This document shows, piece by piece, positions 23,947 through 29,393 of a stretch of DNA of 64,000 bases. The notes under the pieces are model-generated. The model searched no databases. It was not told the origin of the DNA and was given only the letters and a program-made list of their open reading frames with translations. Both the position numbers and the translations under genes were made by a program. Position 1 is the stretch's first letter. Every line of letters begins with the position of its first letter. Source of the stretch: an uncultured Pelagibacteraceae bacterium (lineage in GTDB: Bacteria > Pseudomonadota > Alphaproteobacteria > Pelagibacterales > Pelagibacteraceae); assembly GCA_902636025.1 (NCBI GenBank), contig CACPQG010000001.1:319770-383769 (forward strand), given 5' to 3'.

Positions 23947-25008
23947 TTAAAATTTTGGTTCTTGCTGTGTCATGCAATGTATTGCACCAAAACCCCAAAT
24001 TAATTTACTGCAGTCGATTGGTATTATTTTTTTATTTTTAAAAAAATTTCTAAATATCTTAATAACTTTTTTATCTTCTTTAACATTAAAAATAGGTAAT
24101 AATACTTTTTTATTAATAATTAAGAAATTTAAGTAACTAGCTGGAACCCTTTTTTTTTTAATAAATACTGGTGAAGGCATTGGGATTTTGATTATTTGAA
24201 ATTTTTTTTTATTATTATTTTTACTTCTAGATAATATTGTGAAATTAAGTTTTAAATTTTTAAAATTTGCATCTTTTTTATTTTTTTCTACCGCAGTCAT
24301 TATTGTATTCTTGTCTACAAATCGAGCAATATCATCAATATGCCCATGAGTGTCATCCCCTGATATTCCCTTTTTCAGCCAAATAAAATTATTGATTCCT
24401 AAATATTTTGAGAAGATATTCTCATAATCTTTTTTTTTGAAACCGTTATTTCTTTCTTGTACCTTACTTAGTAGGCACTCTTCAGTAAGTAGTAAAGACC
24501 CTTGTCCATTTGTATCAAACGCACCACCTTCCATAACTATTGATCTGATGTTTTTACCAAAACTAATTTTTGGTTCAATTCTTTTAACTTTTATTATTTT
24601 ACTTATTTTTTTATTAATTTGATTATCTCTATTGAAATTATAATATTTAGACCATGCATTGAATTTAAAGTCTAGTATCAACTTTTTTTTAATTCTTTTA
24701 TTAATTATAAATATTGGTCCAGAGTCACGTAACCATATTCTATCTGTTTTAATTTTGTGAAAATTGATATTGCTTAATTTCGCTTTATAATTTTTTAATA
24801 TATTTAAAACTTGATGTTTATTTTTATCAATTAATAAATCAACTTTTTGGTTTTCTGAAATTATTTTAACAATTTTTCCAACAACATGTGGGATAAAACT
24901 AAAAAGGTCTGGCCAATCATTTTTATTATAAGGCCATGCGATCCAAATTGATTTTTGAGGTTCCCATTCTGCAGGAATCTTAAATCCAGTTAGTTTACTA
25001 GTCATCAT
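23947..25008 (-). CDS. aguA: Agmatine deiminase
   Basis: Converts agmatine to N-carbamoylputrescine and ammonia. The 353-residue protein belongs to the guanidino-group-modifying family: WPYNKNDWPD near the start, DRIWLRDSGPIF, MEGGAFDTNGQGSLLLTEECLL, GDDTHGHIDDIARF, and the nucleophile cysteine (Cys345) in GAIHCMTQQEP. Two adjacent ATGs (25008 and 25005) could start it. It overlaps the end of aguB by 11 bases and is the last gene of the four-gene polyamine cluster. Lysine-rich divergence from textbook members is in line with the genome. Confidence 0.92.
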   Translation of the reverse strand: MMTSKLTGFKIPAEWEPQKSIWIAWPYNKNDWPDLFSFIPHVVGKIVKIISENQKVDLLIDKNKHQVLNILKNYKAKLSNINFHKIKTDRIWLRDSGPIFIINKRIKKKLILDFKFNAWSKYYNFNRDNQINKKISKIIKVKRIEPKISFGKNIRSIVMEGGAFDTNGQGSLLLTEECLLSKVQERNNGFKKKDYENIFSKYLGINNFIWLKKGISGDDTHGHIDDIARFVDKNTIMTAVEKNKKDANFKNLKLNFTILSRSKNNNKKKFQIIKIPMPSPVFIKKKRVPASYLNFLIINKKVLLPIFNVKEDKKVIKIFRNFFKNKKIIPIDCSKLIWGFGAIHCMTQQEPKF

Positions 25009-25879
25009 CCGGATTCTTTAATATTCCTTTATAGAAGTCTACTCTTCGATCTCTTAAAAATGGCCAGTGCTCTCTCGCAATATCTATTTTATCATAATCA
25101 ATTTCACGAATTAAAATTCCTTCTTTTTTATTTCCTAATTTGCCAATTATCTTTCCACTTGGATCAATAATCATAGAATTTCCCCAAAATTCGATTTTTT
25201 TATTTCCTTTTTTTTCATTACCGACTCTGTTAACCGCAACAACATAAGTTCCATTAGCTATAGCATGTGATTTCTGCATAGTTACCCAAGAATCCAATTG
25301 TGCTTTTCCAAATGTTTTCTTTTCTTTCGGGTGCCATCCAATTGCAGTAGGATAAAAAATTATTTGTGCACCCCTTAAAGCAGTGAGTCTAGCAGCCTCA
25401 GGAAACCACTGATCCCAACATATTAAGGGACCAATATTTCCATATTTAGTTTTAATAGATTTAAAACCAAGATCACCCGGGGTGAAATAAAATTTTTCAT
25501 AATATCCCGGATCATCAGGAATATGCATTTTTCTATACTTTGATAAAATTTTTCCTTTTTCATTTATAATAATACTTGTATTATGATAGAAACCACGTGT
25601 TTTTTTTTCAAACATAGATATCATTAAAACAATATTCAATTCTTTTGATAAATCGCAAAAAACTTTTGAGGTTTTACCTGGTATTTTTTCTGCAAATTTA
25701 AAATTTGAGTGGTTTTCTGTTTGACAGAAGTAATTTGTTAAGAAAAGCTCAGGTAGACAAATTATTTTCGCATTTCTATTAGCAGCTTTTTTAATATTTT
25801 TTATAACAGCCTTTAGATTCGAATTATAATTATTTAAAATTTTACTCTGGATGATACCAATAATTGTTTTTTTTGGCAT
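24998..25879 (-). CDS. aguB: N-carbamoylputrescine amidase
   Basis: Nitrilase-superfamily hydrolase that converts N-carbamoylputrescine to putrescine, CO2 and ammonia. The 293-residue protein has the catalytic triad: glutamate 44 in CLPELFLTNY, lysine 117 in YRKMHIPDDPGYYEKFYFTPGD, and cysteine 154 in LICWDQWFPEAAR. The HIPDDPGYYEKFYF segment and the C-terminal HWPFLRDRRVDFY fit AguB closely. Its place between aguA and the deoxyhypusine-synthase-like gene supports the assignment. Confidence 0.93.
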   Translation of the reverse strand: MPKKTIIGIIQSKILNNYNSNLKAVIKNIKKAANRNAKIICLPELFLTNYFCQTENHSNFKFAEKIPGKTSKVFCDLSKELNIVLMISMFEKKTRGFYHNTSIIINEKGKILSKYRKMHIPDDPGYYEKFYFTPGDLGFKSIKTKYGNIGPLICWDQWFPEAARLTALRGAQIIFYPTAIGWHPKEKKTFGKAQLDSWVTMQKSHAIANGTYVVAVNRVGNEKKGNKKIEFWGNSMIIDPSGKIIGKLGNKKEGILIREIDYDKIDIAREHWPFLRDRRVDFYKGILKNPDDD

Positions 25880-25883
25880 TTAA

Positions 25884-26924
25884 TTAAAATATTTCTGAAA
25901 AATTTTTTCTTTCTCTATTTTTCCATTCCCCAGCATGATAAGCATCACTTGCAATTAAAGGTAGCACACTTGTTGCCTCTGCAAAAACCATTTGTTCTTT
26001 TGATGTATCGACTTTACCCCATGAACTTGCCTCTTTAAGCGTTGAACTACTGCATGCTCCATCTCTAGAGTCAGCAACTGTGATTTGGACTGCATATTTA
26101 TGCATATCAACTTCTTTACCTAATAGCTCAGCGCATATTACTGTGTCTTGAATGAAATTTTTTGGAACTCCTCCACCTATCATAAATAAACCCGATCCTT
26201 TTGATCTGATTTTAATTTCTGTTAATTCTCTAAATTCTCTGATTGAATCTATGGTAATATGCTTATTTGGGTTTCTTTCTTGATGCATCACTAATCCAAA
26301 GCCAGCGCTAGAGTCTGTAAAAGCAGGACAAAATATTGGAACATTATTATCGTATGCTGTTTCAATTAATGAGTCTTTTTTTTTCGAATTTTTTTTTAAA
26401 AATTTGCCAATTTCCCTAATAAATTCCCTAGAGGTATAAGCTTTTGGTTCCAACTTATCTGCAATTTCACCAATAGTTTTATCACACCTTTGAAGCTCAT
26501 CTTCATCAATATATGTGTCGTAAATTCTATCTATATAATTCTTTCTTAGCTCATCATCATTCTGAAATTGCGAGCCCTGATAATGTTTAAATCCAAGTGC
26601 CTCGAAAAAATCCATATCAATTATTGATGCTCCTGTTGCAACGATTGCATCTACCATATTATATTTAACCATATCCCTATAAATATGCATACATCCTGCT
26701 GCAGAGGTTGAGCCAGCCAAAGTTAAAAAGATTGTACAATCTTTATCTTTAAGCATTTCATTATAAATATTAGTCGCATTTGCAGTCTCTCTGGAAACAA
26801 ATGACATTTTCCCCATTGCTGATATAATTTCTCTACTATCAAATTTGGTAATATCAATATGCTCTACTGGATTTTTTAAAAAATCTTTTTTACTGTTATG
26901 ACCTAGATTTTTTTTATCAGACAT
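25884..26924 (-). CDS. Deoxyhypusine synthase-like enzyme (probable polyamine aminobutyl/aminopropyl transferase)
   Basis: A 346-residue homologue of eukaryotic and archaeal deoxyhypusine synthase, an NAD-dependent enzyme that moves an aminobutyl group of spermidine to a lysine. Bacteria lack the normal target eIF5A, and bacterial homologues are linked to homospermidine or related polyamine synthesis. The NAD-site segments TLAGSTSAAG and VATGASIIDMDF are present, and the active lysine is retained in KEASSWGKV (Lys304). The DGACSSSTLKEA stretch precedes it. It lies between aguB and the decarboxylase, so it likely works on putrescine or agmatine. The exact product is inference. Confidence 0.85.
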   Translation of the reverse strand: MSDKKNLGHNSKKDFLKNPVEHIDITKFDSREIISAMGKMSFVSRETANATNIYNEMLKDKDCTIFLTLAGSTSAAGCMHIYRDMVKYNMVDAIVATGASIIDMDFFEALGFKHYQGSQFQNDDELRKNYIDRIYDTYIDEDELQRCDKTIGEIADKLEPKAYTSREFIREIGKFLKKNSKKKDSLIETAYDNNVPIFCPAFTDSSAGFGLVMHQERNPNKHITIDSIREFRELTEIKIRSKGSGLFMIGGGVPKNFIQDTVICAELLGKEVDMHKYAVQITVADSRDGACSSSTLKEASSWGKVDTSKEQMVFAEATSVLPLIASDAYHAGEWKNRERKNFSEIF

Positions 26925-28102
26925 TAAGCAACAAGAAATGCTTTATATTTATCTTTGTCGTACATGCTCATTATAGGCTGATCTTGCACTTCATAAATAC
27001 TATCTGAGTAAAAACCATTAAATTTAGTTCTAAATGTTAGTCCATATGCTCCTAGTTGACCTAGTTCTATATAATCATTTTCTTTAATGTTATTTGGTAA
27101 AATAAATGGTCCTTTCATATAATCCATACTATCACAAGTTGGACCATAGAAATCAAATGGAGTAAGTTTTTTTGAAACCAATCTTCCAATCGGAATCATT
27201 CTTGAAGGATAAACAATATTTGGAACTCCTGCATCAAATAATGTTCCGTAAGTTCCATCATTTATGTAAAGTTTTTGTTTTTTTCTTAAAATTACTTTGA
27301 CGATAGTTGAACCACTCTCAGCCACAATAGCTCTACCTGGTTCACAAATAATTTCAGGTTTTTTTTCAAGCTTTAATTTTTCTAAGGCTATTTTAATTTC
27401 TTTAAAATAGTTATCTAATGATTGTGGTATGAGATCAGGATAGATTGTTGGAAATCCACCTCCAACATTTATATAATCTGGTGAAATTTTTGTTTTTTTT
27501 ATAATATTTCCGATCTCTGCTATTCCTTTCGAATAAGATATTGGATGCATACATTGTGATCCAACATGAAAACTTAAACCAATTTTTTTAGCATATTGTT
27601 TTGTTAGTCTTAAAAGACCTAAAGCCTCACTATGTAAAGCTCCAAATTTTTTTGATAAATCTATTTCTGCATGTTCATTTGAAACAGCAACTCTAACAAA
27701 TAATTCTAAATCTTTAGCTTGATTAGTTGCCTCAATTATTTTGATTAACTCTTCTTTTGTATCTAATGAAAAAGTTTTTACACCATGTTTAAAATAAGCC
27801 TCTTTTATACTTTCTCTAGATTTAACAGTGTGCATGAAAGAACACTTCAACTCTGGATTTATTTTTTTTATTTGTTCAATTTCTTTTAATGATGCTACAT
27901 CAAAATTTTTAATTCCGCTTTTAATAATAGTATCTATTACTAAAGGGTGAGGATTGGTCTTTACTGCATATAAAATTGTGCCTGGAAATTTATTTTGGAA
28001 AATTTTTGAAGCTTTTTGTATTGCACTCGTTCTAATGCAATATATTGGTTCAACAGGTTTAAGTTGACTTACAAGTTCGTCAACACTTTTAAATTTTTCC
28101 AT
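26924..28102 (-). CDS. Ornithine/lysine decarboxylase (alanine racemase fold)
   Basis: PLP-dependent group IV decarboxylase of 392 residues, the type that makes putrescine from ornithine and in some relatives cadaverine from lysine. PLP lysine 48 sits in LYAVKTNPHP; further marks are FHVGSQCMHP, VGGGFPT, ICEPGRAIVAESG and the C-terminal active-site cysteine in GPTCDSMDYM. The ATG at 28102 follows a good GAGGGG Shine-Dalgarno sequence at 28110-28115; a longer frame upstream runs through the leader hairpin and is rejected. It heads the polyamine cluster; its stop overlaps the next gene by one base. Confidence 0.9.
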   Translation of the reverse strand: MEKFKSVDELVSQLKPVEPIYCIRTSAIQKASKIFQNKFPGTILYAVKTNPHPLVIDTIIKSGIKNFDVASLKEIEQIKKINPELKCSFMHTVKSRESIKEAYFKHGVKTFSLDTKEELIKIIEATNQAKDLELFVRVAVSNEHAEIDLSKKFGALHSEALGLLRLTKQYAKKIGLSFHVGSQCMHPISYSKGIAEIGNIIKKTKISPDYINVGGGFPTIYPDLIPQSLDNYFKEIKIALEKLKLEKKPEIICEPGRAIVAESGSTIVKVILRKKQKLYINDGTYGTLFDAGVPNIVYPSRMIPIGRLVSKKLTPFDFYGPTCDSMDYMKGPFILPNNIKENDYIELGQLGAYGLTFRTKFNGFYSDSIYEVQDQPIMSMYDKDKYKAFLVA

Positions 28103-28125
28103 TTCATAGCCCCTCAAAAAAAAAT

Positions 28126-28179
28126 TTAACAAAAAAAATTTGCACATCTTGTATGCAAATTTGTAATTTCTTCACTCAT
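28126..28179 (-). CDS. Candidate 17-residue leader peptide upstream of the decarboxylase
   Basis: A short frame encodes MSEEITNLHTRCANFFC and ends 23 bases before the decarboxylase ATG. The terminator-like hairpin at 28138-28160 lies inside it, covering about codons 7-14, and the U-run forms its last codons. An AGGGG sequence lies 12 bases upstream of its ATG, farther than ideal. The layout is that of an attenuation leader, but no conservation can be tested here and a chance frame is possible. Confidence 0.4.
   Translation of the reverse strand: MSEEITNLHTRCANFFC
28131..28160 (-). terminator. Terminator-like hairpin in the decarboxylase leader (possible attenuator)
   Basis: On the minus strand ATTTGCA (28154-28160) pairs with TGCAAAT (28138-28144) around a nine-base loop and is followed directly by a run of seven T. 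It lies upstream of the decarboxylase, between promoter region and gene, so it would act on the polyamine operon itself. Alphaproteobacterial ornithine decarboxylase genes are known to carry a conserved speF leader motif; identity with that motif was not tested. Confidence 0.6.
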
Positions 28180-28291
28180 TATGAGAAATGACCCCTAAAG
28201 TAAAGAAAAATTTTCAATGTTATTAAGCCTGTTAAATTCCCACTTAAAATGACATATTGAAAATCCCATTTTAAATCCTATATGGGTACTC

Positions 28292-28849
28292 ATGACAGAT
28301 AATGTTCAAAAAGTAACAGATTTAGGGGATAAATCGTTATTAATAGTTGATGATGATAATACCTTTAGAGAAAGGTTATCCAGAGCTATGGAAAAAAAGG
28401 GTTTCTTAGTCTCTCAAGCTGAGGGTGTAAAATCAGGTATAGCGTCTATAAACTCAAAGAATCCCGCATTTGCGGTTGTTGATTTAAGACTTGGTGATGG
28501 CAACGGTTTAGAGGTTGTAAAAGAACTTCAAAAGATAAATTCTAAAAGCAAAATTATAATGCTTACAGGTTATGGAAATATACCAACTGCCGTTGCAGCA
28601 ATTAAGCAGGGAGCAATTGATTATTTAGCGAAGCCCGCAGATGCTGACGATATTGAAAAAGCTCTTTTAGCTGATCCTAAAACTAAAGCCCAACCTCCCG
28701 AAAATCCTATGTCTGCCGACAGAGTAAAATGGGAACATATTCATAGAGTATTCGAGTTATGTAACAGAAATGTATCTGAGACTGCAAGAAGATTAAAGAT
28801 GCATAGACGTACGTTGCAAAGAATTTTATATAAAAGATCGCCTAAATAA
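28292..28849 (+). CDS. regA: RegA/ActR/PrrA-type response regulator
   Basis: Redox-type response regulator of alphaproteobacteria. The 185-residue protein has a receiver domain with acidic pocket (LLIVDDDNTFRERL) and phospho-acceptor Asp64 in AVVDLRLGDGNG, the switch LTGYGNIPTAVAAIKQGA and lysine in YLAKPAD. A short linker with prolines follows, then a Fis-like helix-turn-helix NVSETARRLKMHRRTLQRIL, the highly conserved RegA DNA-binding end. No RegB-type sensor is in the window. It diverges from the polyamine operon and overlaps the convergent bioY end by 8 bases. Confidence 0.93.
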   Translation: MTDNVQKVTDLGDKSLLIVDDDNTFRERLSRAMEKKGFLVSQAEGVKSGIASINSKNPAFAVVDLRLGDGNGLEVVKELQKINSKSKIIMLTGYGNIPTAVAAIKQGAIDYLAKPADADDIEKALLADPKTKAQPPENPMSADRVKWEHIHRVFELCNRNVSETARRLKMHRRTLQRILYKRSPK

Positions 28850-29393
28850 ATTTTCTAATTTTAATAAATTTTGAAGTTAAAAAAGTAAGCAGTAAAATTT
28901 TAAATAACTCTGCATAAATAAATGGAAAAAATCCAAGTTTAAATATAGGTTTATCCCATCCAATTAGAATACCTAACCAAACAATACCAAAAAAATAAAT
29001 AAAGAAAACCGAAAATAAAAGTTTAATAAATATTAAAATTAAATTTGTTTTAAAATTTAAATAACCTGTAAAAAAAGCTGCGAATAAAAAACCAATTAAA
29101 TATCCCATGGTAGGTCCTACAAAGTATGCTAAACCAACTCCTTTTTCAGGAGAGTTTGAGAAAACAGGAAGTCCTAACAAACCTTCAACTAAATAAACAG
29201 AGACTGTTGCAACTGCAATTTTATATCCAAATGATATTCCTAAAAAAAGAACCGCAAAAGTTTGCATAGTCATTGGTACTGGGTAAAAAGGTATTTTTAT
29301 TTTTGCTGAGACAGTCAATAAAATCGAACCAACAACAACGATGAAAAAATTTCTTAAGATTTTTTGATTATTAGATATACTTATATTTTCCAT
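28842..29393 (-). CDS. bioY: Biotin transporter BioY
   Basis: Membrane S-component for biotin uptake. The 183-residue protein has about six hydrophobic segments and BioY signature stretches: SAKIKIPFYPVPMTMQTFAVLFLG, VYLVEGLLGLPVFS and GPTMGYLIGF. No BioM/BioN energising subunits are nearby, so it may act alone or share an ECF module. It lies 32 bases after the ABC ATPase gene, which is not of the BioM type. Confidence 0.9.
   Translation of the reverse strand: MENISISNNQKILRNFFIVVVGSILLTVSAKIKIPFYPVPMTMQTFAVLFLGISFGYKIAVATVSVYLVEGLLGLPVFSNSPEKGVGLAYFVGPTMGYLIGFLFAAFFTGYLNFKTNLILIFIKLLFSVFFIYFFGIVWLGILIGWDKPIFKLGFFPFIYAELFKILLLTFLTSKFIKIRKFI

Follow-up and report, generated by a model that had tools for sequence, protein, structure and literature searches.

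A compensated hairpin and two T tracts ahead of a polyamine decarboxylase operon in a Pelagibacteraceae genus: a possible attenuator

The window analysed here, a stretch of 64,000 nucleotides from an uncultured Pelagibacteraceae bacterium, carries four consecutive genes on its minus strand, in the order decarboxylase, agmatine-coupling synthase, N-carbamoylputrescine-amidase-like gene and agmatine-deiminase-like gene (Table 1). Among named records, single-cell genomes of Pelagibacteraceae come nearest, with a decarboxylase identity of up to 99%. As determined by comparison of 97 loci, the agmatine-coupling gene follows the decarboxylase in every one of them, and a divergent regA gene lies on its other side in 96, the remaining locus being without that flank. 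The solved relatives of the decarboxylase are mostly ornithine or lysine enzymes, and the amidase-like and deiminase-like genes both score under their NCBIfam cut-offs. Because an agmatine-coupling synthase is here accompanied by deiminase-like and amidase-like genes, the gene content suggests agmatine, and hence arginine, as the input of the operon. The operon (23947-28102, minus strand) resembles an agmatine-based homospermidine route, and its decarboxylase may use arginine rather than ornithine. Since the next gene matches an agmatine-coupling enzyme, ornithine is an uncertain substrate of the decarboxylase, and ornithine sensing is not to be assumed. Beyond the operon, a BioY family gene (28842-29393, minus strand) lies on the strand opposite to regA, the end of which it overlaps by 8 bases, and is preceded by an ABC ATPase gene.

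Table 1. Features of the decarboxylase locus and its leader, with positions in the window
Feature	Position	Strand	Basis
Agmatine-coupling synthase gene	25884..26924	minus	NF002699, 580 bits, cut-off 500
Alanine-racemase-fold PLP decarboxylase (ornithine/arginine/lysine decarboxylase family)	26924..28102	minus	profile and relatives
Overlapping uORF MKWKNLKVLTNL, 12 codons, odc1-like tandem start	28069..28107	minus	by sequence, odc1 geometry
Candidate helix H2, 3' strand AAAAATTTAA, decarboxylase codons 2-5	28089..28098	minus	complementarity
Ribosome-binding site GAGGGG	28110..28115	minus	by sequence
T2, second T tract, 9 T	28116..28124	minus	all 143 leaders
Candidate clamp helix H2, 5' strand TTAAATTTTT	28120..28129	minus	complementary to 28098-28089
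Spacer GTTAAA	28125..28130	minus	comparison of 143 leaders
17-codon ORF of the earlier note, judged probably not functional	28126..28179	minus	comparison of 143 leaders
T1, first T tract, 8 T, the first 3 in the stem base of H1	28131..28138	minus	all 143 leaders
H1, terminator-like 11-bp hairpin, loop of 5	28136..28162	minus	conserved with compensatory changes
Expected transcription start, about 6-8 nt past the -10 element	28169..28173	minus	inferred from sequence and comparison
Predicted -10 element CATAAT	28178..28183	minus	comparison of 143 leaders
Predicted -35 element CTTTACT	28199..28205	minus	comparison of 143 leaders
regA/prrA-type response regulator, divergent	28292..28849	plus	NF033791

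The decarboxylase is present at high identity in 234 of the 300 genomes of the genus, and in 42 of the 44 near-complete ones. Leaders were collected from 28 of the 30 loci of a first search, from 80 named loci and from 65 more, which yielded 173 leaders and 143 distinct ones. Unused among the first 30 were L029, in which the gene start is absent, and L030, a paralogue; the leaders L176, L219 and L246-L252 were retrieved but stand outside the set of 143. The mean protein identity of the decarboxylase is 82% (109 full genes, 800 random pairs), and as its third codon positions are only 57% identical on average, the near-invariance of the leader points to selection.

At the upstream end of the leaders, the 7-mer assigned to the -35 element reads CTTTACA in 99, CTTTACT in 34, ATTTACA in 6 and TTTGACA in 4 cases. 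A -10-like hexamer 14-16 nt past this 7-mer scores 6/6 in 129 leaders, 5 in 13 and 4 in one; the best-scoring hexamer was taken within 14-17 nt of the -35 element, and its presence is thus partly by construction. The distance from this hexamer to the hairpin was left unconstrained in the search, and in 142 of the 143 leaders 11-16 nt separate the end of the promoter-like pair from the hairpin. A scan for E. coli-type consensus elements, which demands 3 G-C pairs for a terminator and a 16-18 nt spacer for a promoter, reports no sigma-70 promoter and no terminator at the leader. A genome-wide promoter model fitted by expectation maximisation converged on a G/C-rich artefact and was discarded; the promoter assignment rests on the comparison of leaders.

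An earlier note on this DNA had described a hairpin with the arms ATTTGCA and TGCAAAT. Both arms are present (28160-28154 and 28144-28138, minus strand), and the full pairing of the hairpin, termed H1, joins 28162-28152 with 28146-28136. In all 143 leaders a hairpin can form, and the first T's of a tract of 7-10 T belong to its base. In 135 of them its energy is at or below -4 kcal/mol, compared with 6.2% of 2860 dinucleotide shuffles (20 per leader), and the mean is -6.7 kcal/mol as against +0.4 in the shuffles, with 0 kcal/mol entered if no hairpin formed. By its energy H1 is a weak stem, and five leaders lie above -2 kcal/mol, four of them at +0.6.

The structure of H1 is conserved by compensatory changes across the leaders. 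Its sequence is freely replaced among them, two groups of arms being distinguished, one with GCATA/TATGC and one rich in A/T, and 120 of the 143 stems are bulge-free, the other 23 being bulged. In the bulge-free leaders, stem positions 4-10 are paired in 95.8% of the cells compared with 61.0% after shuffling (maximum 65.2% in 1000 shuffles), a test that omits the 23 bulged stems. Counted by the Fitch method on a tree of 89 genes, the stem changes comprise 64 double ones from pair to pair, 33 single ones that keep the pair and 15 losses; the stem register was set by folding in this count, and some of the double changes may represent register shifts. Among the 56 hairpins of the 143 that measure 27 nt, 34 are distinct, and in this ungapped set, chosen by length, 96.5% of the positions are paired and 7 of the 11 pairs have changed on both sides. 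Cells with both-sided changes number 30 in this set versus 5.8 in shuffled versions, a value that 0 of 500 shuffles attained, and slid versions are far lower. RNAalifold recovers 10 of the 11 pairs from the 34 ungapped hairpins; from an unanchored 97-row alignment it yields no more than 4, with both-sided changes in 3 of these, the low yield being due to mis-registration of arms of unequal length. Of 20 leaders from other genera of the family, only 4 have a hairpin at or below -4 kcal/mol that abuts at least seven T; judged by this distribution, the H1-T8 form belongs mainly to the genus of the window.

An inverted repeat just past a promoter might equally be a DNA operator, bound by RegA or another regulator. 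Conservation of the sequence GCATA-N5-TATGC within one leader group is consistent with this explanation, as is the divergent position of regA in all 96 loci with flank. However, the second leader group keeps the pairing although its arms, of A and T only, have a markedly different sequence, covariation is free in the lower stem and a T tract abuts the stem in every leader, which makes a protein-binding site in the DNA highly improbable.

The T run that the earlier note placed behind the hairpin is found at 28138-28131 (minus strand), and it is the first of two. Both T1 and T2 are uninterrupted, with 7-10 T, in all 143 leaders, and the spacer between them reads GTTAAA in 69, ATTAAA in 47 and GTAAA in 21, six others occurring once each. 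Among the genomes scanned for the corresponding pattern T7-N(1-2)-TAAA-T7, 28 contain the start of the gene, and in each of these the pattern stands at this locus; off the locus the scan returned 54 rows, versus 58 for a reversed control pattern. A second locus of this type, or a regulon, was sought in 20 of the 54 off-locus rows and rejected, all of these lying in open frames of at least 60 codons, in sense or antisense.

For comparison with other terminators, the contig (435,635 bases) offers 82 gene ends with a gap, 7 of which carry a hairpin with T5 or more and 5 of these T8. The two strongest 3'-end terminators have the form AAAAGGG(G/C)...CCCTTTT with T8, at -18.0 and -15.3 kcal/mol. Among the 103 divergent leaders examined in the contig, T5 or more follows a hairpin in 4 and T8 in a single case; the decarboxylase leader itself was hidden from this survey by an over-long ORF call. 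These two intrinsic terminators of the SAR11 contig share with H1 the plan of an A-tract, a perfect stem and T8, but they stand at 3' ends, whereas H1, with its weaker stem, would lie at the 5' end of the mRNA before the gene. As the upstream neighbour is divergent, H1 by its position cannot be the terminator of that neighbour's transcript.

A hairpin in this place could also serve as a stabiliser. Stem-loops at the 5' end can stabilise mRNAs, and H1 might guard the transcript against 5'-dependent decay while the U tracts act as landing sites of the ribosomal S1 type, with no conditional termination. H1 starts about 5-10 nt from the expected (inferred) 5' end in 142 of the 143 leaders, weak H1 stems are tolerated and U-rich sequence adjoins the ribosome site, all in line with such a role. 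Protection of the 5' end, however, has no need of an uninterrupted tract of 7-10 T right after the stem, as is present in 143 of 143 leaders, and it leaves the fixation of decarboxylase codons 3 and 4, described below, unneeded. We regard it as unlikely.

The earlier note had further proposed that a 17-codon ORF overlapping the hairpin is translated as a sensor, which would make the leader a leader-peptide attenuator or an arrest-peptide system. The ORF exists on the minus strand, from an ATG at 28179-28177 to a stop at 28128-28126, 23 bases before the decarboxylase ATG (28102-28100), and frames ending in ANFFC or AYFFC-like residues, with any start codon, are seen in 12 of the 143 leaders. 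Its use as a sensor is contradicted by the comparison. The attenuator-like hairpin and T run right before the polyamine operon are conserved in 143 of 143 leaders, but the peptide, whose conservation across relatives the note had named as a check, starts with ATG in only 6 of the 143 distinct leaders, or 7 with TTG allowed. All six adjoin a decarboxylase at least 96% identical to that of the window, and the relatives L037-L040, at 92% identity, already have no ATG at the start position of the ORF. More generally, an ATG-started ORF of at least 8 codons around the hairpin, in a frame other than that of the gene, is absent from 85 of the 143 leaders; the remaining 58 present 43 different peptide-and-stop combinations, similar only inside small groups of close relatives. 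With GTG and TTG starts allowed as well, some out-of-frame ORF around the hairpin is found in 98 leaders and none in 45. In the window, the ATG of the 17-codon ORF overlaps the predicted -10 element, the expected transcript start lies only about 9 nt from the hairpin, and the stop of the ORF is merely part of the conserved TTAAA of the spacer. Judged by these comparisons the ORF is probably not used, and a sensor built on it is scarcely credible.

Escherichia coli speF is controlled by an ornithine-sensing arrest peptide. The alphaproteobacterial speF motif, which the earlier note had invoked together with it, is not represented here: RF00518 gives no match above its gathering score in the window or in the whole of the window's own genome, and it is absent among the Rfam matches at E<=10 in 27800-28600. 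The Rfam matches around the leader, at gathering and permissive E-values alike, are at chance level only and were rejected. As a control, RF00518 matches 3 of the 76 genomes of the class that were searched, a set that includes the window's own, and 0 of 14 control genomes.

In the sections of PMC1273637 that deal with it, the speF RNA is described as a leader of COG0019 decarboxylases in alphaproteobacteria whose conservation begins near the putative transcription start, and in both respects the window leader is alike. The same sections give the speF RNA a long multi-stem fold, with more than 150 nt left before the start codon, whereas the window leader measures about 70 nt overall; its authors there saw no binding of ornithine, putrescine or spermidine. 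The enterobacterial speF leader with orf34, as presented in parts of PMC6386406, also places a polyamine gene under premature termination and a structure over the ribosome site. It differs in its length of 516 nt, its translated ORF and the involvement of Rho, where the window has an intrinsic-type hairpin with no conserved leader ORF before it. The mRNAs of the E. coli polyamine modulon (passages of PMC4191411) resemble the window in an A-U-rich stem at the initiation region and a link to polyamines; their stems, however, are bulged and their translation is stimulated by polyamines.

Closer to the window stands odc1 (uORF-25-1), a leader RNA thought to control initiation. As described in the relevant part of PMC8632094, it has a pair of UUG starts with two nucleotides between them, its uORF encodes 11 residues, and its ribosome site lies within a hairpin. 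The window shares with odc1 an ornithine-decarboxylase-type gene downstream, tandem starts two nucleotides apart (ATG 28107, AA, ATG 28102) and a short overlapping uORF, of 12 codons versus 11 in odc1. It differs in that its starts are ATG rather than UUG and its ribosome site is in no stem, and in place of the odc1 P1 stem it has a hairpin at the 5' end that runs into T8, followed by another T8. No counterpart of the P1 hairpin over the ribosome site was found in the window, where H1 ends at 28136, 20 nt before GAGGGG. Common descent of the window leader and odc1 is likely. As a regulatory ORF, the overlapping uORF at 28107 is a stronger candidate than the one of 17 codons.

The leader might be read as an A/T-rich descendant of odc1 that still works as a translational switch, directing initiation either to the overlapping uORF (ATG 28107) or to the main start (ATG 28102). 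Beyond the tandem-start geometry of the window, this explanation draws on the other genera of the family, in which 15 of 20 leaders have an ATG two nucleotides before the main start, 9 of them with an 11-codon uORF (M[KR][CW]xNL) and 6 with one of 18 codons. Within the genus, however, a start codon is kept at the tandem position in only 30 of the 143 leaders (26 ATG, 4 TTG) and absent in 113, and the ribosome site lies outside H1. A covariance model built from three evident odc1 leaders (L232, L234 and L275) recovers its own members and at E<=10 hits neither the window nor any of 25 other SAR11-family loci; the model is narrow, however, and also misses five tandem-start alphaproteobacterial leaders (L223, L231, L235, L242 and L280). 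It matches 2 of 142 genomes of the class, one of them a model source. A switch of the odc1 type still operating in this genus appears unlikely.

Several of the leaders from the other genera of the family (L253-L272) show a GUGU...ACAC-type helix around the ribosome site in which the changes preserve pairing, together with tandem ATGs and a T-x-TAAA-T element in a hairpin loop; by sequence, this form is a possible intermediate between odc1-like and window leaders. The leaders L220 and L271, from genus g5, contain a U8/A8 hairpin together with an ORF of 5 codons that has its own ribosome-site-like AGGGGA, and are unlike those of the window's genus. In another alphaproteobacterium, a tmRNA gene lies beside the decarboxylase (L228, 2635-2987), matched by the alpha and permuted tmRNA models.

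The candidate helix H2 would bring the region of the second T tract together with the first codons of the decarboxylase. On its gene side, AAAAATTTA is invariant in 143 of 143 leaders, and decarboxylase codons 3 and 4 each use a single codon in 109 of 109 genes. Among conserved columns for which two codons are available, those using only one number 2 of 88 in the decarboxylase, namely codons 3 and 4, and 0 of 103 and 0 of 44 in two neighbours, which leaves these two as the sole single-codon columns of 235 in the three neighbouring genes. Codon 2 varies in amino acid (Gln, Glu or Lys) yet ends in AA in 109 of 109 genes, and codon 5, whose third base is outside H2, takes the form AAA in 70 of these genes and AAG in 37. 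The fixation of silent sites in codons 3 and 4 argues for a role at the nucleotide level. H2 may be the structure behind it. The strands of H2 are nearly invariant and therefore cannot covary, and in 37 of the 109 genes about 10% of the other segments of the decarboxylase gene proved equally complementary to the T tracts. On folding at 20 C, the probability of H2 exceeds 0.5 in only 64 of 97 leaders, and the predicted pairing of the ribosome site itself averages only 0.33.

Further into the gene, a possible coding hairpin GUUGA...UCAAC was noted in codons 6-14 (28061-28087, minus strand). A coding hairpin H3 over codons 7-14 was dropped, since its junction pair, between the third base of codon 8 and the second base of codon 12, is present in only 69 of 143 genes.

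Taking the compensated hairpin and the two T8-type tracts together, we suggest that this genus-wide RNA leader of about 70 nt may well be an attenuator that would also clamp the start site. What the comparison establishes is the conserved structure; termination, clamping of the start site and the signal are inferred. Transcription would start about 9 nt ahead of H1, and at about +40 the polymerase would reach H1-T1, which would act as an intrinsic terminator that leaks. Read-through transcripts would form H2, by pairing of T2 with codons 2-5, around the ribosome-binding site, which would slow initiation. The homospermidine-type operon would be held by a two-step brake, composed of the leaky 5' terminator and the start-site clamp.

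No conserved ligand-binding domain of the kind that precedes the expression platform of a riboswitch was found before H1, where the RNA would extend over at most about 10 nt from its inferred start; a ligand might still bind the module made of T1, T2 and the first codons. Since this leaves no room for an aptamer, an antiterminator or a leader peptide before H1, the likeliest signal would be the polyamine level itself, or an RNA-binding protein, and the outcome negative feedback. Hfq, a candidate binder of U tracts, was not found in the window's own genome (83% complete), whereas the search was positive for 5 of 14 control genomes. In E. coli, spermidine stabilises bulged, mainly U-rich stems in the initiation regions of some mRNAs, according to passages of PMC4191411, which makes the polyamine product a natural candidate for the signal; in the cases treated there polyamines stimulate, with a sign opposite to that of the proposed brake. 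It speaks against the proposed brake that SAR11 bacteria are described in parts of PMC8437039 as often being without transcriptional regulation of carbon oxidation functions; the same parts state that their polyamine enzymes were not seen to rise under N limitation, although section 9 cites up-regulation of a putrescine pathway upon putrescine addition.

A more specific form of the proposed attenuator and clamp can be envisaged, in which an A-U clamp, maybe a U.A-U triple helix, would be built from the two fixed U8 tracts and the likewise fixed A5 in codons 2-3; homospermidine or spermidine, as the operon's own product, would stabilise it and would also strengthen the marginal 5' terminator. 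We hold this form to be decidedly unlikely. If true, it would constitute an aptamer-free polyamine switch, by which an excess of polyamine would stop transcription and translation at once in highly abundant ocean bacteria.

Because SAR11 genomes hold little non-coding DNA, a structured leader in all 143 distinct leaders of the genus is notable. A literature search by term, whose scope lay outside subscription journals and which included PMC2704228, PMC2965389 and PMC8632094, found no description of this SAR11 leader. The leaders of alphaproteobacterial decarboxylases occur in several unlike forms, represented by the speF RNA, by odc1 and by the type seen in the window, and the last of these provides a rare case in which silent codon positions beside a start codon are visibly fixed. 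The leader offers a small and concrete target for the question of how SAR11 cells control polyamine synthesis.
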